Shown piece after piece: positions 19,931-42,239 of a stretch of 64,000 bases of DNA. Source of the stretch: Daphnia pulex (Eukaryota; Arthropoda; Branchiopoda; Diplostraca; Daphniidae); the NCBI RefSeq assembly GCF_021134715.1, contig NC_060022.1:3601001-3665000 (forward strand), written 5' to 3'. The notes under the pieces are model-generated. The model had not been told where the DNA came from and made no database searches. It worked only from the letters and a program-made list of their open reading frames with translations. Within the stretch, counting starts at the first letter, position 1, and each line of letters opens with the position of its first letter. Position numbers and translations under genes: made by a program.

Positions 19931-20949
19931 GGTTCAATTAGCATCTAGACTCTTCGCACGCTTTTTACATTTGTTACTTTCGATCCACAGAATTCGCTTT
20001 CAGCTTTCACCAACTACATCTTCCCAAATGTTTTCTCCTCCGACTGCTTTGTCAATACAGTGATTGGCTTCCAACGAGATTCGAAATGTTTCTCGCCCAG
20101 CGAGCACTGTAGTTTTATAGATTATGTTGCATTTAACTTTTACCAGTCTATAATTTTTTGGCTAGATAGGCTTATGGATTCGCTGTCTGGAACGGCTGGA
20201 ATTTGAATTAAATTTAAGCACTACATGAGACAATAATCGTTAAATTTCTTTTTTACAAGGTTTGCAATTTCCCGTTTCCTCTAGATATCCTGAACGGTAC
20301 GGTAATTCAGATGCAGGGGATTCCCATTCTCAAGGTGACGATACTGTTTATTTGACAGGAATAATAATGACAAGAGTTGGAATCGATTAAATTCACATCG
20401 AGATGTGCACTCAACGGTCATCATCTTCGCTTCACACTAAAATGATCCGTGTTTGATTCCTTGCTCGTCCAATTGTGTAATGACCCCTAAGATGTATTCA
20501 TATTTCATATGACCTTGTATGTCTTGCATATCCGCTCTTCATTAATGTACAATACACAGTCTACATCAATATAGAAACCAATATTTATTGTAGAAATTTT
20601 ACACTTTCATCGCTTGTTTAATAATAATCGATAATAATATTTTAAAAAAAGGAAATCTACTTTAATAATACCCTACCATCTTAATTAATATTAAATATTA
20701 TATTTGATTAATACTCTCTGTCCCGTGCTGTCAAAATTGACAGAATGAAGCCGATTGCCGGACATTAAGAGAAACATTTTACATTTCTCTCTCTCCGGTT
20801 ACCAAGTTGAAATAGCTGAGGACCTGACCAATTTTGAATTGAAGCAAAAGGTGCTGGATGTCTCACGTGGAGTTGACTGGACGAGATACAACGGCCGCTG
20901 ACACTTTGCTTTTTATTTTTATCCCACTGCATTCACGGCCAAATTTTAG

Positions 20950-21343
20950 GCAGCAATTCATCGACCATATCATTCAATAAAGACGTTCGAAAATATTTTA
21001 ATGAATGCTACTGTCCTGGCTTGAAAGGAAAATCTAAAGCGATATTTGTCTCAACTCCATTCGGCTCCGCTGGATGGAATCCGGTTTCGCAGTTAGATTG
21101 TGTAGGAGGATACAACCCACATTTATACGACAATTTCCTTGTTATTTGGCCAACGTCTTACGTTCTGTCTGTTTCAAATGGTAATTAACTAATTATAACG
21201 AAAAATTAATTTTTACATTTAATTTTACTTTGAGGAAATTAGGTGGATCACAATTTATTACGGAATTCAGTACGGAACTGAAGAAATCGAATGCAGCAAA
21301 CGACACAACTCTTGCGTCTTTCAGGACTGCGGACTGCCATTAG
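20950..21343 (+). CDS. two exons of an unrecognised gene (5' end not found)
   Basis: An exon from 20950 to 21180 follows an AATTTTAG acceptor. It is joined by a 62-base intron with GT-AG ends to 21243-21343, where the frame closes with TAG. The combined frame of about 109 codons contains NKDVRKYFNECYCPGLKGKS, STPFGSAGWNPVSQLDCVGG and NFLVIWPTSYVLSVSNGGSQ. The composition and the clean intron argue for real coding sequence, current or recent. About 150 bases upstream another frame reads YQVEIAEDLTNFELKQKVLD and runs to TGA at 20901, which may be a decayed earlier exon. I recognise no family. Confidence 0.4.
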
Positions 21344-22275
21344 TACCATAAATAATCGCAACAACCTTACTCGATACCGAAAACGTCAGTTTTGGTCGAT
21401 TCAGCAATGGAATGTTTAAATTTCGCATCAATTTGTTCAAAACCAAATAACGAGTCAAGTCATGACAAAATAACGGATTACACGACGATTTTATTGACTG
21501 TACTTTTGCTTTTACGAGCTAGTCGTACATGCCCGCAAGACATAGGAGCACATAAACAATACAGAAGACGATAGTGCCCTTTTGTCGGTGTTCTTCACAA
21601 GTCGTGGAATTTTGTATACCAAAACAAAAGTATGGACGAAGCGCGAGTCACGTACAATACGAAAATTAAAATTTGCCACGTCGTGCAAAATCACTGGCGG
21701 GTTCCAAACGTTGCACACATCTCTGCAAATCCGAAAATTTGACAAACTTGTTCAATTACATGACTTACATCCCACGCAAATTCATTTAGAAAAATTGGAA
21801 GGGGAAATTGGGACTATGTAAAGGGGGCAGCTGGGAGACATAAATAGAGTGAACTGGGGGGACAGATGCAAAATATGAATAGACGAGAAAAGAAAAGAAA
21901 GTCAAAACTCAAAAGTCTCTACAATAATTAAGGAAATAACAGGTGAGAAAAACAAAACAAAAGAAAAACGAACATTCCAACTTCCTAGGTGTTAAATCCA
22001 AAGGATCTCAATCCTAAAAAAAAAAAAAATCCTCACCAGCGAAGAGAGGAGGGCGCAACAAGAGTTACGATCACTTCACACCGACGGCGAGAAAACAAAC
22101 CAAAAGAAACTGTACACCCACTCGCACCACTCAATCACTAATCTGACGCCGTTTTCCAACTCTACCAAACAGAACCTCTCACACCAATTGCCCCCCATAT
22201 TTCTCATCAAATGTCCAACGGAATCATTCCCCATGCTTCAAAGTAGCGCATCAATAACCGGCTCTCGTACATTTT
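21344..22275. other. intergenic, no gene seen
   Basis: AT-rich with A-rich tracts (for example 22018-22029). It is the 3' flank of the LSM14-like exons on the minus strand. Confidence 0.5.
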
Positions 22276-24054
22276 CTAAGCTCGATTCTCCTGTTGTTGC
22301 TATTAAAGAAAGAAAAAATTAAAATTTGAATTAATTGTTGCAGTATCATCACTTACCCAATTCCTCCTTTGGTTGTAACCACCTCTGGGCTGACCAGTAC
22401 TTTCGGAGTCGCGATTTCCTCCACCGTTCACCTCGTCCACCACGGCCACCTCGGTAACCACCTGATGTCCTGATCCCCGATAGCCACTGCGTTGCTGAAA
22501 AATTCCATCTCTTTGCTGAAAGCCGCCTTCACGCTGTTGATATCCTACATCTCGGTTCTGATATCCGCCTTCACGTTGGTAACCATCTTCACGTTGCTGA
22601 TAGCCACCGTCGCGCTGTTGATAGCCATCGTTATTCTGCTGGCGATAACAACCTCCACCTCCGCCGCCACCACCACGCCCACCACCGCCTCCACGATTAA
22701 ATCCACCTCGGCGTTGATTGAAAGGTAACTCGAATGTCTCGGCATTTAATTTTCGCTCCTGGCGCCAATCTGTCCGTTGAGTATTGCTACTTAAAATATA
22801 ATATTATAAGTCACCAGTCCATCAAACCATCAAATTAAAAATTATGATATCTTACCCTTTGCTGCGCTCCACAGCCTCGCAGCTGATTGAATCGAAGAAC
22901 GAGCGCGTTTTGTCGTGGCAGATGGGTCTCTCTGGAGACTCTTCGTCTGTTGAAGCTTCACCATCGGCAGAAACTGCAACGGTGTCAGCAGACTCGCCTT
23001 CGCCATCTCTGCGATCAGTATTCTGACCTCCACCAGCGTTGTTACCACGTGCACGGCCACGAGAATTTGATCTTCCATTTCCTCCCCGCTGTTGCTGGCC
23101 TCTATCGTTCTGTTGAAACCGACCACCACCACCGGATCCACGGCTGCTAGTTCGTTGATCCTCTTTCTCACCTAGCAATGGTGATTTCCTCGATTGACTC
23201 GTCCCGGAAGCGCCACCAACAGGCGTTGGGATGTTGGACCTGTTCTCATTCCTAAAATAAGCAGAGGCAAGTTCTTAGTTGACTACATCAACACAGAACG
23301 AGGTGGCCGAGTGGTTTAGGCGTGAGACTGCTAATCTCATGTGCTAAGTAACAACAGTGTGACAGTGATACTTACGGAATTTCATCCAAGAAATCACCCA
23401 ACACTTCCGAAATTTGTTGCTGCCCCGGAGGAGGAGGTGGAAGGGGAGGTGGTGGTGGCGGTGGCGCCATTCTTTTCTTGACTGCCTTCGTGTTCGTGCT
23501 CTTTTCGTGTTTGGGTTGGAACCGCTGTTGCTGGCCTCTATCGTTCTGTTGAGACCAACCACCACCACCGGATCCACGGCTGCTAGTTCGTTGATCCTCT
23601 TTCTCACCTAGCAATGGTGATTTCCTCGATTGACTCGTCCCCAAAGCGCCACCAACAGGCGTTGAGTTGTTGGACCTGCCAACTCCACCCAACAAATCTA
23701 GGGTATTTCCTAATAAACAAGATTAGACAGGTGTTACAACCGAATAGAACTACAGACCAACGCCACCAAAGGACAAAGCCAAAGCAGTTAACAAGATACA
23801 ATTGCGTGTTGATGCATATGTAGAAGAAGCTATATATACGCATGCAAGTGAGTGGGAATGAAGCAGGCAAAAAAGCAATCCCCCCTCACAATCCTGCAAC
23901 AACTTCCTTACTTGGTTTAGGTTTTGCGACAAATTTCGTTAAGAAACTTGTAACTCCATCGGGAAGAAACATGAGCGATCGCTTAGGCTTTGCCCCTCCA
24001 ATATCTTCTGATCCGCTGGATTGCACGTCTCGCTGTTGTGGCATTGGTATATAA
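22276..24054 (-). CDS. LSM14/Trailer hitch C-terminal-like protein (FFD and TFG boxes, RGG tail); may be the 3' half of a chimera
   Basis: Five phase-consistent exons: 23912-24054, 23376-23709, 22856-23251, 22357-22786, 22276-22299. The third ends with CHDKTRSFFDSISCEA, the FFD box of LSM14/RAP55/Tral. The fourth opens with TDWRQERKLNAETFELP, the TFG box, followed by a Gly/Arg-rich and QQRDGGY-type repeat tail. LSM14 proteins repress translation in P-bodies. The LSm domain that should start the protein is absent from this window, and no EFDFE motif is visible. The second exon has a poly-proline block and ISEVLGDFLDEI. Exons two and three share an almost identical 157-base segment. The first exon (GGAKPKRSLMFLPDGVTSFL) is not known to me. 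In the tail, the alternative frame reads GGYRGGRGGRGE for about 40 bases, which suggests compensated frameshifts. The first exon's phase also fits the last CHMP5-like exon upstream. Confidence 0.65.
23086..23242 (-). repeat. duplicated coding segment, copy 1
   Basis: About 157 bases nearly identical to 23522-23678 (offset 436), encoding GTSQSRKSPLLGEKEDQRTS and RGSGGGG. It lies inside the exon at 22856-23251. By eye fewer than about ten differences. Confidence 0.85.
23297..23346 (+). pseudogene. 5' half of a tRNA-Ser(GCT), truncated
   Basis: The sequence AACGAGGTGGCCGAGTGGTT followed by TAGGC shows the acceptor 5' strand and D-arm. TGAGA-CTGCTAA-TCTCA forms a perfect anticodon stem-loop with anticodon GCT. 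After TGTGCT the similarity ends: no T-arm, no 3' acceptor strand. It lies antisense inside the intron between the two duplicated LSM14-like segments. It cannot fold as a complete tRNA. Confidence 0.8.
23522..23678 (-). repeat. duplicated coding segment, copy 2
   Basis: Partner of 23086-23242, inside the exon at 23376-23709. The copies differ at a few positions, for example RFQQ in copy 1 and WSQQ here, which points to a recent event. Confidence 0.85.
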
Positions 24055-24502
24055 CTAAATTTGAAAACAAGGAAACAAAAATAATCGAAAATGACAATGA
24101 TTAAGTTTTTCTATGTAATAAAATTATGTTTGTGTCTTTTTTTACTAGAAAGTTACTAGGAAAATGGGAAGAAAAATTTAATAAAGAGAAAACGAAAAGT
24201 AGGAGGAGCTTGCTCTTCTTGCAGCGAGATATGAGAAACCCAAGTTAAGCTTATTTTGTTTAGGGAAACCGAGAAAAAAATTAAACATAAAAGCTGTAAT
24301 AACCCTTGTCAAAATTGGCAAGAATTAGTTGACTAATAACAGCGATTTTTAAAATAAAATTGCAATGTAAGAGTTGGCGTGTAAACGTAATAGTCGATTT
24401 TTAAAAAATCGATCAGTAACAAAGAGCGCGCGAGATTCAAACTTAATATTCACAAAATTGCCAGAATTGGAATTCTTAAGATTTAGACAAATGGTGACTT
24501 AC

Positions 24503-24911
24503 GGTAATCCAAATTCATCAACAGCAACACCATCCTTAAACAAACAAACAAAACACAAATATCAAAAACAGTTCAATATCAATAATACAGTGAAGAAATA
24601 CAAAAATTGGCATACCACGTTAAGGCTTTCAGCTCCTGGTTCCCCGTCTGGCGCTGACGGAGCTTTTATCGGATCAAGATAAGATGAATCTTCATCTCCA
24701 AGCATTTCATCACCCAGAGCTTCCAGTTCAGCTTCCAGTTCATCTTCATCAATATCAGGGGTTCCATAGCTTCTACCAAGGGCTTCTTGGACTTCATCAG
24801 CTTGTTCAAGCATATCAGCCATATCGTCTTGGATATCCTTTTTTTGGAATAGAAACAAAAAATTTTATGTTCTGCTCAATACTACGAAAGTAGATAATAA
24901 GTCTAACCTCT
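24503..24911 (-). repeat. tandem duplication unit A of CHMP5-like exons
   Basis: Matches 25026-25461 across both exons and introns. The intron text AAACAAACAAACAAAACACAA and the flank ACTACGAAAGTAGATAATAA are the same in both. Unit A keeps the canonical CHMP5 reading. Confidence 0.9.
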
Positions 24912-25937
24912 ACCGTTGTGGAATTAGATTTCCGTTTAATAACGGATTGGTTTCTGTTGCAAGCAGACCTGTTGTTGAAGATGGATAGATTCCTGACTGA
25001 TCTGGATATAAAGGCAGTAATCTTTGGTAATCTAAATTCATCCACAGCAACACCATCCTTAAACAAACAAACAAAACACAAACATCAAAAACAGTTCAAT
25101 ATCAATAATACAGTGAAGAAATACAAAAATTTGCATACCACGTTAAGGCTTTCAGCTCCTGGTTCCCTGTCTGGCTCGTCAAGATAAGATGAATCTTCAT
25201 CTCCAAGCATTTCATCGCCCAGCGTTTCATCACAAGGATTCATCGACCATTTCCGCAGAGCTTCCAGTTCAGCTTCAACTTCCAGCAGTTCATCTTCATC
25301 AATGTCAGGGGTTCCATAGCTTCTACCAAGGGCTTCTTGGACTTCATCAGCTTGTTCAAGCATATCAGCCATATCATCTTGGATATCCTTTTTTTGGAAT
25401 GAAAACAAAAAATTTTATGTTCTGCTCAATACTACGAAAGTAGATAATAAGTCTAACCTCTAATTGAATTTGCATGGCTTTCTCCGTAGACTGTGTATAT
25501 TTCAACATTTGTTTGACATACTTAGCCTGTTCCATGGAAAATCTCTGTTGACGCAAATTACCAGCTATTTTTTCATATCTGGGCAGAGCATTCTTATTAA
25601 ATTTTTACCCATAGTTATTCTAAAGTAATTTCTTCTTTTTACCTTTTTTTTTGCTCGAGCACTCGAAGAGCTTTTTGCTTCACTGCATTTTTAGCTGGAC
25701 CTTCTCCCATTTGGGCCATTTGATCTCTGTACTTTTTCAACTCAACATCCAATTTGCTGATTTTTTTCTCAATATCTTCTCTTCTTTCGTCGACCTGTGT
25801 AAAGAAGATATAACAAGTTATAAACAAGTTTTTTGTCTTATATCCATGCAGGAAGGGAAAACCTTGGATATCATGTCAGACATGTTAGGAGCAGGCTTAC
25901 TGCGACTGCGACCGAATATGCGCTTCACAACCTTCAT
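24503..25937 (-). CDS. CHMP5/Vps60-like ESCRT-III protein with internally duplicated exons
   Basis: ESCRT-III subunit family acting at endosomal membranes. Exons: 25863-25937, 25643-25794, 25458-25578, 25142-25387, 24908-25057, 24619-24837, 24503-24534. Hallmarks are [40 protein letters not shown] and [11 protein letters not shown]. The last four exons are two copies of the CHMP5 C-terminal exon pair. The third exon ends at KAMQIQLE and the next begins [10 protein letters not shown], so about 18 residues of the usual alpha-helical segment (human MKKAYKQVKIDQIE region) are missing. The first repeat copy carries an insertion, and its second exon continues past the normal end into unrelated sequence. 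No canonical terminal codons after GLP were found; an acceptor at about 24470 would end the protein after nine more residues. This is a diverged paralog or part of a chimera, unlikely to be the main CHMP5. Confidence 0.7.
25026..25461 (-). repeat. tandem duplication unit B of CHMP5-like exons
   Basis: Partner of unit A. It differs mainly by a 30-odd base insertion in the acidic exon and a short deletion near the SYLDE codons. Confidence 0.9.
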
Positions 25938-26041
25938 TTTCCTCTGAGGAACAAATCTAAGTTTGGACACAGACTAAGACCCTCTAGTCTGTGGTTTGGA
26001 TTGTAAACTGATGTGATGGGGGGTAGGTGCGTCTGCATAGA

Positions 26042-26424
26042 TCCGGCGTAGCCGGATTTAGTAGACTTCTGGTCTTCTAATTGAAGACCCTCAGCACCGG
26101 CTTGTGAGTTGATCTTCTGATTTGTTTCTTGGCTGGTTTTTTAAATTTTGTTTTGTTTTTTGGATGGGGGAATGGTTTTTTGTTTATCCTGGAGTTTTTC
26201 TGTGATGTCTGGCGACACCATGCTGGCGATGCTGTGGGGCTGTTTCCTGGGGAGAGGGCTGGACTAGTGGGACGACATCTCGGCGATTTGTTTTTTGTTG
26301 GTCAGTCGCCGAGTCGCGTAGATTTGTTCTTAGTGTTGCACAATTATTAGTCACTGTTTTTGTGTTGTTATGTCAAAAACAACAAGGGCCTTAATTGATC
26401 GATAAGGTGGAGCTCAACGCCACC
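26042..26424 (+). other. cluster of perfect hairpins, possible 3' end of an old non-coding element
   Basis: Four inverted repeats occur within 383 bases: ATCCGGC/GCCGGAT (26042-26058, loop 3), GGTCTTC/GAAGACC (26072-26090, loop 5), CTCGGCGA/TCGCCGAG (26279-26313, loop 19) and GGTGG/CCACC (26406-26424). The T-rich plus strand between them has no coding potential. This could be the 3' untranslated part of a retroposed element or a structured RNA. The family is unknown. Confidence 0.35.
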
Positions 26425-27180
26425 TGTGCGTCACAAATGAAAATGAATCGCAGGGGGGAAAAATGGTTAACACTTAATTATGTTATAAATTTTAATCAAT
26501 GAAAAATGACAAATTGAAATGGGCTTGATAATTTCATTTGATTATTGCTTTAAAATAGATGTCATACGAGTAACCTGAGACATATGTCGTGGCAATAGAT
26601 CTAACCAAATTTTAATGGTCATGCACCTTGTATTTCATTTTTCAAATTGACGCGCGGTGGCGCCTCCGTGCAGTCTGCTGCAGGCGACATGTATCCCTCC
26701 GCCAAATAGTTCCTAATGTTTTTGTTATAATTTTTTTTTATTGTTCCTTTTCTTTTCATTTAAATATTATGCGGTTTCTAGAATTAAGAGAATTGAAACA
26801 TGTATTATGCTGATCATTTTTATTTGAGTGTGTAGGAAAAAAAACCGCGACACGGAAGTGTCAAAGCCTTCGTGATGTTTGTGTTGTCGTCTGCTAAAAC
26901 AATCTTCGTTTGTTCGTTACTTCGTTTGCCATCGACAATCTTGAATCTGTGTATAGTTGCTGATGAAGAAAGTATTTAAAGATGGACATAAATTGTGAAT
27001 GTGTTACAGAGTCCTTGTTTATGACAAGTTTTGCAATCCAAGTTTGGTCTGAGTAAAGAATCATTGGTATCTTACCTATACAGCTGGAAACTATTAGTCA
27101 TGAGTAAGTTTGAGGAATAATTATTAAGCAACATACATAGCCATTCCAGATTATTTGTCTGTGTACAGGTGTTTTGTGAC

Positions 27181-32880: not shown

Positions 32881-34878
32881 TTAAGATTGAAAAATGTCTT
32901 CATCGAGCAACACGCCGATAAAATGAGCGCTATTCGTTGATCCTTGTTGAAGAGACACCTGAATTTCGTCTCCGAGAAGTAACCTTACAGTGTATAAGAT
33001 ATGACAGTTATAAATCCTTCCTGCTTGAGTCACGCAGTCCGCTTTTAGGGCACTATTCACTTTCAGATAAAAATAAAAATTATCATATGTGTTTGCGGAA
33101 AAGCTTGAAAAGGCGAAGAAGTAAGTTCCGCTGCGAGGTGCAGTGAAAATTCCCGACGACACGTTAAACGTATTTCCTGCGTTCAGTGTTTCCCAATCGA
33201 ACGGCATTGCCTCGTTGAAAGTGCTGTAGGTTGTATTCCTTTCAACGTTAAAGTACACGGGTTCCGATTTAAGGTCAACATAACCGATCCACGTCTGGAG
33301 ACCTGAGAAGTTTGTAAAAGAATTAATGAGTCGAAATTCTATCGCCCGTGTTCTTGTAGGCGATGTTGTGATTTTATTTTTACCTTCGTCGCCAGGTAGT
33401 TTATTGAAATCGCAGTAAACCGTTTCAACTTTGTTAGAAGACGATCCTCTGATGGAATACAATCCGGTTAGAGTGTAGCCGATCCGCCAAAGATCTTCGC
33501 ACGATGCTGGCATTCCGTCGAGCACAACTTTTCCGTTGCACTCCATTCGACCAAGTTTGTGCTGTTTAACTGAGGTCGGTGCGATCGTCCGTCCGAAATT
33601 CAACTTTGTCAGTGGAAGCAAGTCCTTTTCTGTGATGACTCCTTTAGGAAAGAAATATGAACAGGTGAACAACTTTCGCCTGGCAAAATGGCTGATTTCT
33701 AAATACCTATGTCAGACAATTCCACGGCTAAATCGCTGTCGCAGTTGCACGAAAGGCTTTTATCAACGCAAGATTTTTCCAAACCACACTGACATGTATG
33801 ATAATGGCTAGTTAAGTTGTTATTCTTGCCAGACCAGAAGTAACGCGGGTCACCATTTCGGTCGTTCCACCAAGCGTAAGCGATTCCATTAAACTCAAAC
33901 GCAGCATCGAAGCAATCGACCTAGTAACAGAATATCCATTATTGATAAATTTTTCCTTTTGTAGTGCATAAACATATCCGAAAACGTTAGGTCAAATACT
34001 TTGCTAAAATTAATGTGAATGCAACAGAGGGGGGAGTTAGCATGTTACCTCGATTGACTGCTGACATTCATTGGAGACTTCAGCTAGCATTGTTATTTGT
34101 CTTAGCGTAGCGTTGTACTTAATTTGTCGGGAATAGCATCCGGGATCGAAACAGTGGCCAGTATCAATTGCATCCTCGCTGTCGTGTAATACGGACGATG
34201 AGCCTATATTAGCAAAAATATTTTTTTAAAAGAAGATAAAATTTCGTTTGCTTTCTTTTTTTTTTTTTAATTTACCTGTGGTCATGTTGCAATAGACGTA
34301 AATAGGTTCGTCTCCCATACCATGGCCGTCAGGATCAATAAAATACATTCCCGATTCTAGTGAAGGATCTGCTGTAAGAGCTTCCAAACAAGTCTTGGGT
34401 GTTTGATACTGCTTTCTGACTGGCAGTAGACTATAGTCTACTTTTTCTCTATTATAATCCAATGGCATTTTGTTTTCGTATTTCTTATCAGAAGACATCT
34501 TGCACTCCTTCAGTAAGAATGCCTGCTCTGCAACTTTTGTTTCCAACAGTTCTACCTTCGTTTTCAGTTTGACAACTTCCAATTCCATTTTCCTCTCGAA
34601 ATGTTTGAATTTGGCCCAGAAATGTTCCTGTTAACAAGTTGGCATATCGATATAACGATCAAAGTAAACGAATTCATTAAGAATATTCATACCTGGAACT
34701 CACGAAAACTTTCCGAGTGTCCAAGGCTTTGCTCATTTTCTTTTGTGGCAGATGGGACAATTGTGAAAATGACCAAGAACAACAGTCCAAGTCCCGCTGC
34801 GACGAAGGACGATCTCTGTCGTCGAACCATATTTTGAAAGTAGGCTAATAGATCTCTAGAGGAGAAATGTTGGAACAT
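32881..34878 (-). CDS. Caspr/fibrinogen-like plus C1q protein 1 (type II membrane form)
   Basis: Six exons: 34693-34878, 34276-34627, 34049-34203, 33707-33920, 33384-33641, 32881-33302. Two in-frame ATGs exist (34878, 34830), giving 528 or 512 residues. A membrane helix (AAGLGLLFLVIFTIVPSA) near the N-terminus precedes a coiled coil (KLKTKVELLETKVAEQ). Then a fibrinogen-like region as in neurexin IV/Caspr proteins: SGMYFIDPDGHGMGDEPIYV, YAWWNDRNGD, YHTCQCGL and CNCDSDLA. A second module (MPASCEDLWRIGYTLTGLYS, VETVYCDF) and a C-terminal C1q domain (GIFTAPRSGTYFFAF ending LLDEDIFQS) follow. C1q domains trimerise and bind ligands, so a cell-surface recognition role is likely. The last intron (81 bases) has no stop and keeps frame. 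Confidence 0.9.
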
Positions 34879-36066
34879 GCACGAGTTCTCTTTTTTTTTT
34901 TTTAAATTTTATTGTTGGCGAGAGATACCCGAGCACACACGTACGTACACTATACTCTCACTCAAAGCTTCTGCACTCGTTTGTTGATAAGATATCTCAG
35001 AAAACTATTTAGCCTGCTGGCTGTCTTATCGCTACGGATCCATTGATCTTCCTTTTTTATGGCTGATAAAAATTTACAATACTTGTTTTTATGAAACGCA
35101 CGAACGTTTTCTGATTTTCGCCGCTTGGCTACTGCCCACGAGCCATGACTTTTGTATGGTCTAGTCATGGTTGACTGAGACAGCCTTTGTGTTTTTACAG
35201 CGAGGGCCGGGTATAGATTTTCGAATGACATAAGAGGAAGGACACACAAAAAAGGGGGCGGAATCTACCTTGTGGCAAGCGATACGTAAGAATGGAACCC
35301 AATTTTGTTTAATTTGTCAAGATCCCTATAACAACGCTCACGGAGCCATGACTGAATTTTGTCCTTAGACTTGATCAACTCAAGGCCATACCATCGCTTA
35401 GACAACAAATAAATTCAAACTTTAAAAAATGGAAACATTTTTTACCGCGAAACGTGTTAACGTGAAATGGTTCCGCTCAGATGATGTTGAAATTATTACG
35501 TAATATAAAAAGTGATTCGCTTCATATATATATCCCAATTCCCAATCTCTTATGCGCCATTTCACGCAAGCTAACATAGAGCATGAATTATCCTGAAGGC
35601 GTGGGAAAAGCACGGACAAAAGACGTTTATTGATGATTTCTATTAACCAATTTACTAACAAGAAGATTTTTTTTTCAAACAATGTCCATGACACAAAAAG
35701 AAAACGCGCTAAAGATTTTGCATCATCTTTTTCATCAAAAATTTAAAGAAATGCAAACCCCAAAACTCAATAGTGAACGAAAAGATAACCTTTTGGCAAG
35801 TTTATAAGATTAACAATTTGTTTTTTATCGTCATTTGTTGGTTGTCTTGACGCTTGAACTCTCTCAATCTTTGTATTCGTATTTTTCTTAAGGTACAAGT
35901 TAATGAATATAAAACGGAAATGTTTGATAGAGGCGGGGGGGGGAGCACCGACATCTTTCGCTTCTATAAAAAAACATGTAAAAGAATAGATACTTTCCAA
36001 GATACTCTCACAACCAATGGCATTTTAACATTGGTTATTTAAAATGCAGCATAATCATGAATGAAA
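34879..36066. other. intergenic, no gene seen
   Basis: AT-rich spacer between two paralogous genes. No supported exon on either strand. Confidence 0.5.
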
Positions 36067-37892
36067 TTAAGACGAGAAAATATCTTCTGAAAGTAAAAAT
36101 CCAGTAAAGTAGGCATTATCTATTGACCCCTCCTTCACAGACACATGAACTCTATCTCCTGGTTTTAATTTCAATGTGTATGGGATATTGCAATGCCAAG
36201 CGCCGTAAGAAGTCTTCAGGCACGACGCAATATCTGCATCATTCAATCGAAGAGAAAGCAGTAGGGAACTATGACTATTTACGGAGATTGACAAATAAAA
36301 CACGTATGTTCCATTGCGAGGAGCAACGAAGACTCCTGATTTCAAGTTGAATGCATTTCCTACATTATTGATTTCTTTTTCGAATGGTAGTAGCCGGCCA
36401 TTGCCACTGTGATATCCAGTTTCTCTTTGAACGTTGAAGTAAACATTTTCTGATTTAACATCGGTGTATCCAACCCACGTTTGAAATCCTTGAAGTTTAA
36501 TTAAAAAACAAATACTGTAAGTTATATTTTAATTCCGAAAATCTCTTTCGGCTATTGGGAACGCAAAACGTTAAATTATGTACCTTGATTGTCAGGTTCC
36601 TTGCTAAAGTCACAGTAAACTGTTTCAACTTTTTTGGAAGACGATCCTTTGATGGAATACAATCCGCTCAGGGTATATCCGATCCGCCAAAGATCTTGAC
36701 AAGAGGAAGGCATCCCGTTGAGCACAACCTTCCCGCTACACTCGAACCGACCGAGCGTGTGACGGTTGACCGATGCTGGGGCAACAGTCCGTCCGAAATT
36801 CAGTTTAGTCACGGGTAACAAGTCCTTGTCCGTTAAAGTTCCTGAATTAAAAAAAAAAAAAAAACTTTAACTGACTCAAGCACTCTTTAAACTCACTATA
36901 GCTTGCTTTTCTAGCAAAATAATTTTCGTACCAATATCTGATGATTGGATGGCCAAATCGCTGTCACAGTTGCATGAAAGACTTTTGTCTTTACAAGTTC
37001 CATCCAGTCCACACTGGCAAGTGTGGTATCGGCCATCGCCACTTGTGTTTTGATTGTTCCCAGACCAAAAATAATGTGGATCTCCTTTACGATCGTTCCA
37101 CCAAGCGTAATGAATGCCGTTGAATTTGAACGCGGCATTGAAGCAGTCGATCTACAATAGCCCACCAGGTACTACTATTAATTCAATTTATTCTTTAACA
37201 CTAGGAAAAGGATTCGTGACTTATACTTGAATGGATTGTTGGCACACTTCTGAGAGTTCACTAAGCACCGTCATTTGTCTTAGCGTAGCGTTGTACTTAA
37301 TTGGTCGAGAATAGCATCCAGGATCGAAACAGTGGTCGATATCGACTGCATCCTCGTTGTCATGGAGCACTGAAGTTGATCCTGGAAGTATAAGAGATAT
37401 TTTATTAACGTATGAATGTGTGCTTAATGCAGCTGAATTACCTGTAGTCATATTGCAGTACACGTAAATGGGGCCGTCTCCACTTCCTTGACCATCGGGA
37501 TCGATCCAAAACATTCCAGATTCCAATGTAGGGTCCGCTGTGAGAGCTTCCAAGCAAGTCTTGTGATCTCCAACGCTATTTCTGATCCATGGCGCATGTC
37601 CGGTGATACCATTGCGATGTTGAATACGCGAACAAGTGTTACACTTCCGCAAAAGATCCTGTTGCTCGCGAGTCTCTGCATCTAACTGCGCTACTTTCTG
37701 TTTTAGATTACCTAACTCAGACTCCACCATAATAACAATAAAATTACATAATTTCAATTTAATTTTCATTATGCTACGTATTTTTATTTATGGAAACAAG
37801 AACACAGTTTTGCTTTAACTGTTTACCTCCATGTAAAGTTCTAATATCACTAAGCACGCTACGGCGCAGGCTAGTATATGCAGAAAGTTCAT
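36067..37892 (-). CDS. Caspr/fibrinogen-like plus C1q protein 2
   Basis: Six exons: 37827-37892, 37442-37721, 37227-37381, 36932-37151, 36584-36841, 36067-36488, about 466 residues, with the same intron positions and phases as its neighbours. The first exon encodes MNFLHILACAVACLVILELY, a signal peptide or anchor. A short coiled coil (LKQKVAQLDAETREQQDLL) precedes SGMFWIDPDGQGSGDGPIYV, YAWWNDRKGD, CQCGLDGTCKDKSLSCNCD, MPSSCQDLWRIGYTLSGLYS and a C1q domain ending LLSEDIFSS. The acceptor of exon two (GGTGGAG) has a poor pyrimidine tract. An alternative start at the MKIK codons around 37769 would give a protein without signal peptide. The role is inferred as secreted or surface recognition. Confidence 0.87.
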
Positions 37893-39282
37893 CTGACAAC
37901 ATTGAACTTCAGTAGACGGGCGTTGCGTTGTTTTCCGCTGCTGAAAATTCTAATTAATTTCATTAGTAGTGGTAAAGAATGCGACATTTCTAAGAAAAAC
38001 ATTCTTTGGCCTTCATCTAACCTTCTAACCCCCTTATTGTCGTTGCCGGTAAAGAAATATGGAACTAAATGTTAAAAACTTTTAGGAATAAAGCTACCTA
38101 GCTATTTATACCTCGTTTTCCTTGAGACGGGTTGAGGTTGTCATCTTCACCTCTGAAAACTATGCTGCCCAAGTGAACTTATTTGATGGCCCAGTTTTGA
38201 TGGTGTAATAAGTATCCAACTGATGTACACCTTGACGAGACACTTCTCCTAAATTATTTTTCACTGATTTTGTCTAGTTTTCACACAACACAGAACAGTC
38301 ACGTATAGAGTCTACGTACACTTTAGACACAATCAAAATGAACGATGAAAATCGAGTGTGTTTTTAGCTACTCTCTGAGACAGTGTATCAACGTAACTGT
38401 GTAACTAAGAAACGTTTTGCCCCAAAGGCCAAAGCCCTTTAAGCAAAAAGAGAAAGAAGGGAGAAGGGGTAACAAAAGGGATGATTCAATTGACATCTAT
38501 GAGAGGGAAAACAGACTATATTTTATGAATTATCTATTAGGCGGTAACACTGGTCAACAAAAAACAAAGAAAGACAAAAAATTAACAACTGCTCAAGGAT
38601 GAGTTAGCCTAATGGAAGTACTCTTTTTCAGAGCATACTAGAACGCCAATAATGTATAACTAGAGACTCACTACATAACAGAAAGATGAAAGAATTATTT
38701 TACTTTTATCTTGACCGTGGTAGGGAGGGATCAGTGTAACTTGTTGACACTAGTTATGCTAAAATAATCGCAATCCGTTCAGCGGATATCGAGCGCTTGC
38801 GATTCAACCGTTTCGATCGTTTTTGAGCGGTTTGAATTTAGGGGGAAGGGGGGTTCGATTTTGAATTTCTATCGATACCTTAATCCTTAAACGTGGCGAA
38901 GATTATTAGTATCGTCTGCTTTCGCCACAAAAGAGACGAAGTTCATGGCGGTTCATGATTAAAAAGAAAAGGGAACTATATATCACTTTTATGGAAACCG
39001 ATGGAAACTTAGGCCGTGACTGCACGAAAAACAGCAGCAAACACAATTACTAATCCTTGGTCATTCGTGTCAACTTTGGTCGCGTCTCTTTATAGATATC
39101 CTTATACTCTTATAGACCTCAATGCACACTCCATGCTGTTTAGCAGGTAACTATAAAACGTACCTACTAACTACTAAGAGTACGAATATAATGATTGTAT
39201 GGGAGTTCATTAAATAGAAGAGTCTAAACCTGTTTCAAATTTGTGAAATGTTAGTTTCTGACTAGCATTCAACATGTAAGCA
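37893..39282. other. intergenic, no gene seen
   Basis: No exon supported. It contains the upstream side of the second C1q gene. Confidence 0.5.
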
Positions 39283-39620
39283 TGTAAGCCCCCTGTCGAT
39301 GCATGGCAGTTTGTTTGCACAGCATGTAACCTTTTCCTTTTTTCAGATTTGAGGCCTGAGCCAGCAATCGTAACCACAAGATATTAAAGTTTTGCTTGTG
39401 CTGGTCCTGCCATGAGCAACAATCTCAGTGTCATCGCTTGGGTAAAGTTTTTCATTATTGATTTTATGAACTTGTGAGTGTGACCTGCTAGATATTTTAA
39501 TGATGATTTGCATGACTTTCATAAATGTGAGTGTGTTACAGTGAAACCTTCAATTCTTCTGTTTATTAACAATTAGGGTTCAACCACTGTCTCATTTCAT
39601 TTTCAAATTTGCCTAAAGTA
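39283..39620 (+). repeat. dispersed repeat copy 2 (partner at 4490-4797, opposite strand)
   Basis: Aligns with the minus strand of 4490-4797 from TGTAAGCCCCCTG to TTAGGGTT. The small frame kept in copy 1 is interrupted here soon after LRPEPAI. A short ATG frame (MSNNLSVIAW) ends at a GTAAAG donor in this copy, absent in copy 1. Confidence 0.7.
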
Positions 39621-40328
39621 ATTGCCTTACTTGTCGTTTCTGTATATAAATTTTTTGTAACCAATTTTTTATTTAGATAAACAGCATCCCGTTTGATGGG
39701 AAAAATACCTGTCGGTCGTCTTGTGGATCTCTTCTTCCATTTTCTTGAAATCTCCCGGATTCACGAGGAAGCGGGATGCCTTTTTCCTATCCGTTGGATT
39801 CAACCAGTATACGGATGGAGCACTTGTGGAAGCCTGGCTGTATTTCCCAGGCTTAAAAGTAAGAAAAATTGTATTTCTATTCTTCCTTTTTGGGTATTTG
39901 GTTGCGTTAGTTATACTAAATCGTGATATCGTACGGAGTACGATTATTCCTGAGCTATGCCTTTGATTGGAACTGTTTTCTCTTGTCATTTTTGTTGATT
40001 CAGTTAGGGTTAATTAACTACCTCATTTATAGAACGAATGCAGATCAGGCCTGTTTTTTTTTTTTTTGTTTTTTTTGTTTTTTTTGTTTCTCACTCTGTG
40101 GGTAAACAATCAAAACCAAAGAATATTTTAACTTTACACACTTTAAGCAAAGTGCAATGATAAAATTTTTTTGACCAAGAGGAACTGCCGCCACACCGGC
40201 ATATCCTCTTTGTGACAGTCAATTTTGACTGAATTTGAACAGTAAATGATATGATAAAATGGAAAATGTTTTATTGATCATAAGGTTGCTAAAGCGCTTG
40301 ATAGGGTTTCCGTTTTGATTCCAAGAAT
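39621..40328. other. unassigned stretch with overlapping open frames
   Basis: Between 39676 and 39966 all of several frames on both strands stay open for 75-105 codons, and an ATTTAG acceptor sits at 39676. The minus frame SVYWLNPTDRKKASRFLVNP and the plus frame RLVDLFFHFLEISRIHEEAG both look partly protein-like. I cannot choose between them and name no family. A palindrome CAGTCAATTTTGACTG lies at 40216. Confidence 0.3.
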
Positions 40329-42239
40329 TTAAGATTGGAAAATATCTTCCGCAATCAGCCATCCGGTAAAAACAGCACTATTTGTTGATCCTGTTTGGAG
40401 AAACAACTGAACTCGATCCCCTGAACTTAGTTTCGTGGTGAATGGAATATTGCAATTTGTTGAGACGTAGGGGGAGTAGCAGTTGGCAACATTTGCATCG
40501 TTCAACTGAAGGTTGAAATAGAGAGGATTGCCATTTTCTGGGAAGCCGGAGAAAACAAAAAAGTACGTTCCGATGCGAGGTGCTGTGAAAACACCCGTCG
40601 ACATGTTAAAAGCATCGCCAACATTCAGTGTTTCCTTCTCGAAGGAAAGGATTGTGTTTAAAGTAGAGAATGATGTGGTCCTCCCAACGGTGAAGTACAC
40701 AGGCACTGTTACAATGTTATTGGATCCAATCCGCGTCTCGAGATCTAAAAATTTAAATAAATAGTTGTAAGTAGGAAAGGTTAACAACATCTCTAATCTG
40801 AAATAGACGATGTTTACTGCACCTTGATCGCCAGGCAGTTTGCTGAAGTCACAGTAAACTGTTTCAACTTTGTTGGAAGACGATCCTTTGATGGAATACA
40901 ATCCGCTCAGGGTATATCCGATCCGCCAAAGATCTTGACAAGAGGAAGGCATCCCGTTGAGTACAACTTTTCCGCTACACTCTAACCGACCGAGCGTGTG
41001 ACGGTTCGTAGAAGTGGGTGCTATAGTTCGTCCGAATTGCAATGCTGTCACTGGCAACAATTCCTTGTCCATTAGAGTTCCTGTATTACGCAAAATGTGT
41101 TGCCATGAATCCTAGAAGCCTATAACGTAACATATTAAAGAATAATTTTATTTCATACCGACATCTGATAACTCGATGGCCAAATCGCTGTCGCAATTGC
41201 ACGAAAGGCTTTTGTCTTTACAATTTCCGTCTAATCCGCATTGACAAGTATGGTAACGACCGCTTGCATTGTTATTGTTTCCAGCCCAGAAATACCGTGA
41301 TTCACCATTGCGGTCGGTCCACCAAGCGTAAGGAATGCCGTTGAACTCGAAAGCGGCATCATAGCAATCAACCTACAATAACAGCGCAATGTTGAAACAG
41401 TTATTATACTTAACGTGAATGCGTGTACATATTTGTAGATCAGTAAATCTTCTCACATACTTTAATGGATTGCTGGCACACATTCGAGAGTTCACTAAGC
41501 ATAGTAATCTGTCTTAGCGTAGCGTTGTACTTGATCTGTCTAGAATAACATCCGGGATCGAAACAGTGGCCGACTTCAATTGCATCCTCGCTATCGTGAA
41601 GCACTGATGTTGACCCTATTTAGAAAAGTCGTTGAAAGAATTTTAAACCTGATTATCTGAAAGTCAATTTGAAACATTTACCGGTAGTCATGTTGCAGTA
41701 CACGTAAATGGGGTCGTCTCCTCTTCCTTGGCCGTCCGGATCGATGAAATACATTCCGGATTCCAACGAGGGATCAGACGTACGAGCTTCCAAGCAAGTC
41801 TTGGGTTCTAGAATTGTCTTTTTGCTACTCCGTTCCATGATTTCGACATTTGTTGTGGGAATAGTGCTATCGTCCTGTCGATCTTTATAGCTTTGCAACA
41901 GGACATCCTGGTCCTGAACTTTTGTCTCCAACAGCGCAATCTTCTCTTTTAGTTTGCCCACTTCAGATTCCATCATGATTTCGAAATTTTTAAACTTCGT
42001 TTTCAGCTCTTCCTGTAATGTAGAAATAATGAAACATTTATGACATTTGGGAACTTGATTGAATATCTAAAAAAAGAAGTCTAGTCTGATTTCTTTTTTT
42101 AAACCTGAATTTCATGAAGTTCTTGAATGCGATCCCCACCTATTACCAAAGCACCATTCGCTCTAGCTTCGATACTGACTGCATTAACAATCGTTAGGAG
42201 TGCCAGTAGGGCAAGGGCCATCAAATTTCGTTGGCCCAT
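40329..42239 (-). CDS. Caspr/fibrinogen-like plus C1q protein 3 (secreted)
   Basis: Six exons: 42105-42239, 41682-42012, 41461-41615, 41159-41372, 40823-41080, 40329-40744, about 502 residues. A clear signal peptide MGQRNLMALALLALLTIVNA is followed by a coiled coil (GKLKEKIALLETKVQDQDVL). Next come SGMYFIDPDGQGRGDDPIYV, YAWWTDRNGE, CQCGLDGNCKDKSLSCNCD, MPSSCQDLWRIGYTLSGLYS and a C1q domain ending LIAEDIFQS. It is the paralog of the genes at 32.9 and 36.1 kb; exon 5 is almost identical in DNA to that of the 36 kb gene, hinting at gene conversion or recent duplication. The segment after exon 5 reads DLETRIGSNNIV where the others have FQTWVGY or LQTWIGY. The last intron (78 bases) is stop-free and in frame. 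Confidence 0.92.

Follow-up and report, generated by a model that had tools for sequence, protein, structure and literature searches.

In the available part of each source, MIM5 is described as the element of CHMP5/Vps60 that binds the MIT2 of LIP5/Vta1 (PMC5141497), the FDF and TFG of LSM14A are reported to bind DDX6, with its FFD suggested in cited work to recruit EDC4 (PMC9987799), and mammalian TEX14 is reported to block ESCRT-dependent abscission in germ cells (PMC6015221). Here we describe a locus of Daphnia pulex in which parts of CHMP5, LSM14 and a third, TEX14-like gene are joined within one open reading frame on the minus strand of a 64,000-nucleotide stretch of contig NC_060022.1 (the window, C6:3601001-3665000). 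Window positions 20744-26566 are a DNA-level mosaic of these three genes. The reading that we prefer, with a rough probability of 0.6, is a young three-parent gene held in frame by selection, with a CHMP5 start, splicing via the donor at 24503 and an LSM14 3' end; the mosaic is predicted to be, probably, one transcript. A chimeric CHMP5/LSM14 gene had been proposed earlier from the letters of the window (the original prediction), and this was the better of the two readings offered there, but the parents number three and the join runs from CHMP5 to TEX14-like to LSM14 sequence. No literature on a CHMP5-LSM14 chimera or on such a Daphnia fusion was found among publications judged by title and start of abstract.

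Three parents and the mosaic

The genome (133.19 Mb, 13 contigs) was searched at the DNA level with window positions 21500-26600 as query, giving at least 44 matches, the window itself among them; all 30 of the 30 first-look candidates were scored, and ten matching regions were aligned to the window with blastn. The CHMP5 parent (L038) lies on C8 and has a model of 220 amino acids (aa), open throughout, with a Snf7 match. The LSM14 parent (L039) lies on C6, about 2.5 Mb from the window, and has a model of 572 aa, likewise open throughout, with LSm and FDF matches. Separate complete CHMP5 and LSM14 genes, for which the original prediction had suggested searching the same genome, were thus both found. 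The third parent matched ankyrin and kinase families in parts in a domain search, and its catalytic motifs look degenerate by eye; on general similarity we provisionally call it TEX14-like. Copies of this gene are present at C6:4.48 Mb, twice on C9 and partially on C2 (the aligned copies are L040, L041 and L042, the last two being those on C9). All parents of the mosaic are on another chromosome or far off on the same one, and its segments were 75-98% identical to them, with E-values down to 0. From upstream to downstream, the mosaic consists of:

26319-26566, minus strand, putative promoter copied from upstream of CHMP5 (92.7% identity to L038 3050-3288)
26009-26309, minus strand, dispersed repeat in the leader, with copies on C1, C3, C5, C10 and others
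25927-25012, minus strand, first CHMP5 segment
25011-24914, minus strand, insert of ~98 bp replacing the CHMP5 stop, open in the frame of the gene
24913-24503, minus strand, second CHMP5 segment
24506-24135, minus strand, TEX14-like intron segment, 95.8% identical to L040
24135-24025 and 24016-23895, minus strand, TEX14-like segments after the intron piece
23872-23522, minus strand, first LSM14 segment
23481-23382 and 23346-23243, minus strand, later TEX14-like segments
23242-23001 and 23010-20744, minus strand, final LSM14 segments
20744-22275, minus strand, LSM14 3' flank, copied with ~3% substitution and containing AATAAA sites

The seven CHMP5-like exons of the original prediction did prove to be of CHMP5 origin, but they are really five exons, the last two of which recur as a tandem copy linked via the insert of ~98 bp. 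Its five LSM14-side exons are mostly LSM14, but exon 8 (24054-23912) is TEX14-like, as is exon 9 in its second half (~23521-23376). A genome search with a 131-base query containing the insert matched the window alone, and among the matches listed outside the window none combines CHMP5 with pieces of LSM14 or of the TEX14-like gene, as judged by coordinates. Compared with the parent, the two tandem CHMP5 copies have 3 synonymous, 1 replacement and 6 non-coding differences in common, and they are accordingly taken to have been duplicated within the window locus or its ancestor. Further downstream, 157 bp of LSM14 are present twice and the TEX14-like pieces are ordered B-D-E then A-C. Both features would be accounted for by a tentative history in which a TEX14-like end was fused to LSM14, the resulting unit was tandemly duplicated and then suffered deletions, and CHMP5 was joined upstream. 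Retroposition was ruled out, introns and flanks having been copied too.

The proximity, within 4 kb, of pieces that come from several loci of the genome might point to an assembly artefact uniting three loci, and stretches of the C9 TEX14-like copies that are 100% identical leave room for assembly duplication elsewhere. The segments of the mosaic, however, are 75-98% and not 100% identical to the parents, so that the parents themselves cannot simply have been misjoined, and both CHMP5 ends carry the 10 common differences from the sole other CHMP5 locus among the matches listed. An artefact is therefore very improbable.

Some further observations concern the leader and the TEX14-like copies. 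At window ~26008-25947 an inverted piece of the CHMP5 leader is broken by a short palindrome and, by eye, resembles a template-switch scar. On C9, L041 3208-7233 and L042 3147-7172 are 100% identical over 4026 bp and lie ~8.4 kb apart, reflecting a very recent duplication, conversion or assembly duplication. Both C9 copies hold a tRNA-Ser(GCT) gene antisense in a TEX14-like intron (L041 4166-4247, L042 4105-4186), of which a remnant is seen at window ~23346-23297; the tRNA scan gave none in the window, and the tRNA-Ser was not found in the C6 TEX14-like copy.

Gene model and reading frame

The gene model comprises 12 exons on the minus strand, from 25937 to 22276, and 11 introns, all GT-AG, in one uninterrupted frame. 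The original prediction had given these exons, introns and open frame, with a length of 774 codons; the predicted protein has 775 codons plus stop. It had also stated that the phases at 24503 and 24054 are compatible, as they are. With acceptor 23697 in exon 9, which the LSM14 parent itself uses, the length is 771 codons and the frame is still open. The exons and the junction intron are:

25863-25937, minus strand, exon 1 (CHMP5 exon 1), start codon at 25937
25643-25794, minus strand, exon 2 (CHMP5 exon 2)
25458-25578, minus strand, exon 3 (CHMP5 exon 3, 45 helix bases gone)
25139-25387, minus strand, exon 4 (CHMP5 exon 4, MIM5 region; 9- and 36-base insertions, 21-base deletion)
24908-25057, minus strand, exon 5 (start of CHMP5 exon 5, the ~98 bp insert, last bases of the second CHMP5 exon-3 end)
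24616-24837, minus strand, exon 6 (CHMP5 exon 4, second copy; MIM5 sequence intact)
24503-24534, minus strand, exon 7 (CHMP5 exon 5, second copy, truncated after ...VDEFGLP)
24055-24502, minus strand, junction intron (TEX14-like)
23912-24054, minus strand, exon 8 (two TEX14-like coding pieces, in-frame join; cryptic 5' splice site)
23376-23709, minus strand, exon 9 (LSM14 exon-6 piece and TEX14-like proline-rich piece, in-frame join; alternative acceptor 23697)
22856-23251, minus strand, exon 10 (opens with the start of a TEX14-like exon and continues with LSM14 exons 6 and 7; carries FFD)
22357-22786, minus strand, exon 11 (LSM14 exon 8; TFE in place of TFG; Gly/Arg/Gln-rich tail)
22276-22299, minus strand, exon 12 (last exon of LSM14, with the stop at the same position)

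Across the nine aligned segments, the parental frame was retained in 2081 of 2148 coding bases (sums added by hand). The remaining 67 off-frame bases (15 in TEX14-like piece E, 6 adjoining the donor in TEX14-like piece A and 46 in LSM14 piece c) we put down to a pair of compensated slips and to ambiguous segment ends. All seven joins at which the splice site could not be freely chosen were in frame, with a chance expectation of 3^-7 = 0.00046; the eighth join was omitted from this test, its cryptic donor having been picked in the original prediction. The LSM14 part has a deletion of ~285 bases (parent L039 4972-4688, measured by hand), 222 of them coding, across which the frame was kept. No stop codon was observed, against 4.8 expected under neutral placement of the 111 changes (P = 0.005).

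The lengths of alignment gaps followed the same pattern. With all coding runs kept, 11 of 18 coding gap runs were multiples of three, compared with 5 of 23 non-coding runs (Fisher P 0.022). The first Fisher tests had used 11/11 coding gaps, excluding seven of the 18 printed runs, namely the compensating pairs 5+4 and 8+1, two runs at segment edges and one within the 27-base donor gap; four of these seven thus cancel pairwise. When the edge and donor runs were left out and the compensating runs counted as failures, the proportion was 11/15 (P 0.0026), and 8/12 (P 0.024) when three runs in the LSM14 tail were left out too. The 23 non-coding runs comprised 16 from one alignment and seven of nine from another, the two omitted being a run of 2 at a segment edge and a run of 23 that forms part of the donor gap (neither length is divisible by three).

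Junction intron and transcript ends

The CHMP5 match ends at 24503 and the TEX14-like match begins at 24505/24506, an overlap of 3-4 bases (24503-24506). Directly after the CHMP5 codons ...VDEFGLP stands an unchanged TEX14-like donor, ACC/gtaagtcacc. In the junction intron, part of one TEX14-like intron (24506-24135) is followed by part of another (from 24135), the intervening exon having been deleted, and at the far end of the junction intron the next AG lies 6 bases downstream of a lost ancestral acceptor, with the frame kept. In the alignments, upstream and first-exon sequence came from CHMP5 only and the 3' flank from LSM14 only; the pieces aligned by blastn included neither a promoter nor a first exon from the LSM14 or the TEX14-like parent. 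Transcription would begin in the copied CHMP5 upstream region, the donor at 24503, borrowed from the TEX14-like gene, would be spliced to exon 8, and the transcript would finish at the copied LSM14 3' end.

Observations against a single gene

Several observations weigh against one gene held in frame by selection. At the junction, the ancestral acceptor before exon 8 has been destroyed (cag to caa), and without splicing at 24503 an immediate stop follows (CCG TAA, 24504-24499), leaving a nearly normal CHMP5-like end. By eye, three ATGs lie between 26318 and the start codon, if transcription begins at the CHMP5 upstream copy. The stop-codon test gave P = 0.074 if half of the changes were placed on the parents' branches, and the LSM14 repeats agree at 1 of 7 sites variable relative to the parent, so that the history suggested above is a weak one. 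The overall ratio of non-synonymous to synonymous substitution (dN/dS) was 0.77 (0.50-1.22), not under the ~0.5 that, by our own reasoning with the conserved parent taken as fixed, is expected of a neutral copy; being near the neutral level, it means that the protein as a whole is without visible conservation. By part, dN/dS was 1.05 (0.51-2.81) in the first CHMP5 copy, 1.40 (0.61-4.22) in the TEX14-like parts, 0.63 (0.28-1.87) in the LSM14 parts and 0.09 (bootstrap 0-0.37) in the second CHMP5 copy, where constraint is suggested, though not significantly (binomial 0.086). CHMP5 exons 1-3 had 30 replacements against a neutral expectation of 14.5 (binomial 0.0076; the Poisson value of 0.00023 ignores error in the neutral rate), and the last LSM14 segment had 10.5 against 10.1.

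The points at the junction would fit two units: a CHMP5-like gene with its stop at the TAA after ...VDEFGLP and a TEX14-like/LSM14 gene starting from an in-frame ATG in exon 8 (...YIPMPQQR). Retention of the junction intron would then give a CHMP5-like protein end just five residues shorter than that of the parent, and the loss of the ancestral acceptor agrees with this reading. The sequence at 24505-24135, however, is intron interior in the TEX14-like copies, is 95.8% identical to L040 with the donor unchanged, and is without AATAAA, having just ATTAAA and AGTAAA, both also present in L040; nor do the aligned pieces hold a promoter or first exon of the TEX14-like gene or of LSM14, and two units have no need of the matching phase at the junction. 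Two units are thus unlikely.

The substitution pattern would fit a decaying mosaic pseudogene, in which duplicated fragments are open by chance, either from the short time elapsed or from earlier intermediates having been genes. Substitution is near-neutral overall and in the LSM14 pieces, a helix and the FDF box are lost and TFG is altered, and the two local frame slips may have cancelled by luck. On the other side stand the frame kept in all nine segments, the gap lengths, the seven in-frame joins and the lack of any stop, and we regard a pseudogene as distinctly unlikely. The other reading in the original prediction, decaying paralogs placed side by side, is likewise made less likely by the frame evidence, but is kept alive by the near-neutral amino-acid substitution. 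The chimeric gene is favoured over decaying paralogs because the parental frames persist through joins and gaps and because, in the blastn alignments, no parental promoter or first exon was copied on the LSM14 side.

Domains and possible function

The predicted window protein matched Snf7 with 112.5 bits over two stretches (cut-off 27.3; parent 158). Its ESCRT-III core helices are incomplete owing to a 45-base deletion in exon 3; the helix gap noted in the original prediction therefore exists, but amounts to 15 residues and not to ~18. In the second CHMP5 copy, a 56-residue stretch containing MIM5 is identical to that of the parent and matches in sequence the CHMP5 chains 2lxm_B, 4txr_C and 3uly_B, the matches spanning residues 11-56 or 23-56 of the 56 queried. 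On the LSM14 side, no PF12701 match with an E-value of 0.01 or less was found in the window protein (99.3 bits in the parent), bearing out the earlier statement that this part lacks its LSm domain. The FDF domain scored 23 bits, under the cut-off of 26.1 (parent 35.9), the FDF box having been removed by the ~285-bp deletion in exon 10. The FFD motif, KTRSFFDSISCEA, is unchanged from the parent, and the region from FFD to TF matches 6f9s_B; the TFG motif is altered, with ETFELP in place of the parental ETFGLP. Of the FFD and TFG boxes previously described, the first thus stands unchanged and the second reads TFE, and of the "P-body tail" the FFD motif is what is left, with the FDF box lost and the TFG box altered. 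In the domain search the window protein matched neither ankyrin nor kinase-like families, and no CEP55-type motif was seen in the copied pieces; the role of mammalian TEX14 is therefore not carried over to this protein.

Given the altered ESCRT-III core and the loss of the LSm domain, FDF box and TFG glycine, filament building and DDX6 binding would probably be lost. The likeliest product would be an adaptor or competitor that binds LIP5/Vta1 through the intact second MIM5 and EDC4 through FFD, though we hold this function to be doubtful. A wider proposal, also tentative, is a functional young gene made of three unrelated genes, whose protein links LIP5/Vta1 with EDC4 or competes for them; in this view the ESCRT-III core changes faster than neutral and the second MIM5 is preserved. 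If the TEX14 name holds, two of the parents have links with membrane scission or abscission that depend on ESCRT, and the third with mRNA granules. If transcribed and translated, the locus would be a compact and datable case of a three-parent gene made by several DNA-level events with all parents extant; it would allow one to ask how frame and splicing outlast repeated rearrangement, and whether adaptor motifs such as MIM5 and FFD survive their source domains. If untranscribed, it would serve as a warning that a mosaic can retain an open frame across several exons.

Elsewhere in the window, at 33116-41809, related segments 69-75% alike (33.1-34.4, 36.6-37.6 and 40.6-41.8 kb) are probably a tandem gene family.

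Comparison with known systems

The window gene resembles CHMP5/Vps60 in its exon structure, its Snf7 match and the intact MIM5 of its second copy, but differs in lacking 45 core-helix bases, in its excess of replacements in exons 1-3, in its doubled C-terminal end and in the loss of its own stop. With LSM14/Trailer hitch/CAR-1 it shares the FFD motif and a Gly/Arg/Gln-rich tail, whereas it is without an LSm match, its FDF box is deleted and TFG has become TFE. From the TEX14-like gene it has pieces of the last four exons of the L040 model, the proline-rich stretch included, but its protein is without the ankyrin or kinase-like match. In mode of origin it resembles chimeric genes formed through duplication and exon shuffling, such as those of Drosophila yakuba, for which the available part of the source (PMC5460883) describes DNA-level duplication joining gene parts together with introns and regulatory ends. 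The chimeras described there arose from tandem duplications, whereas here the parents are distant and nine coding segments have been brought together within 4 kb, in changed order and with the frame kept.

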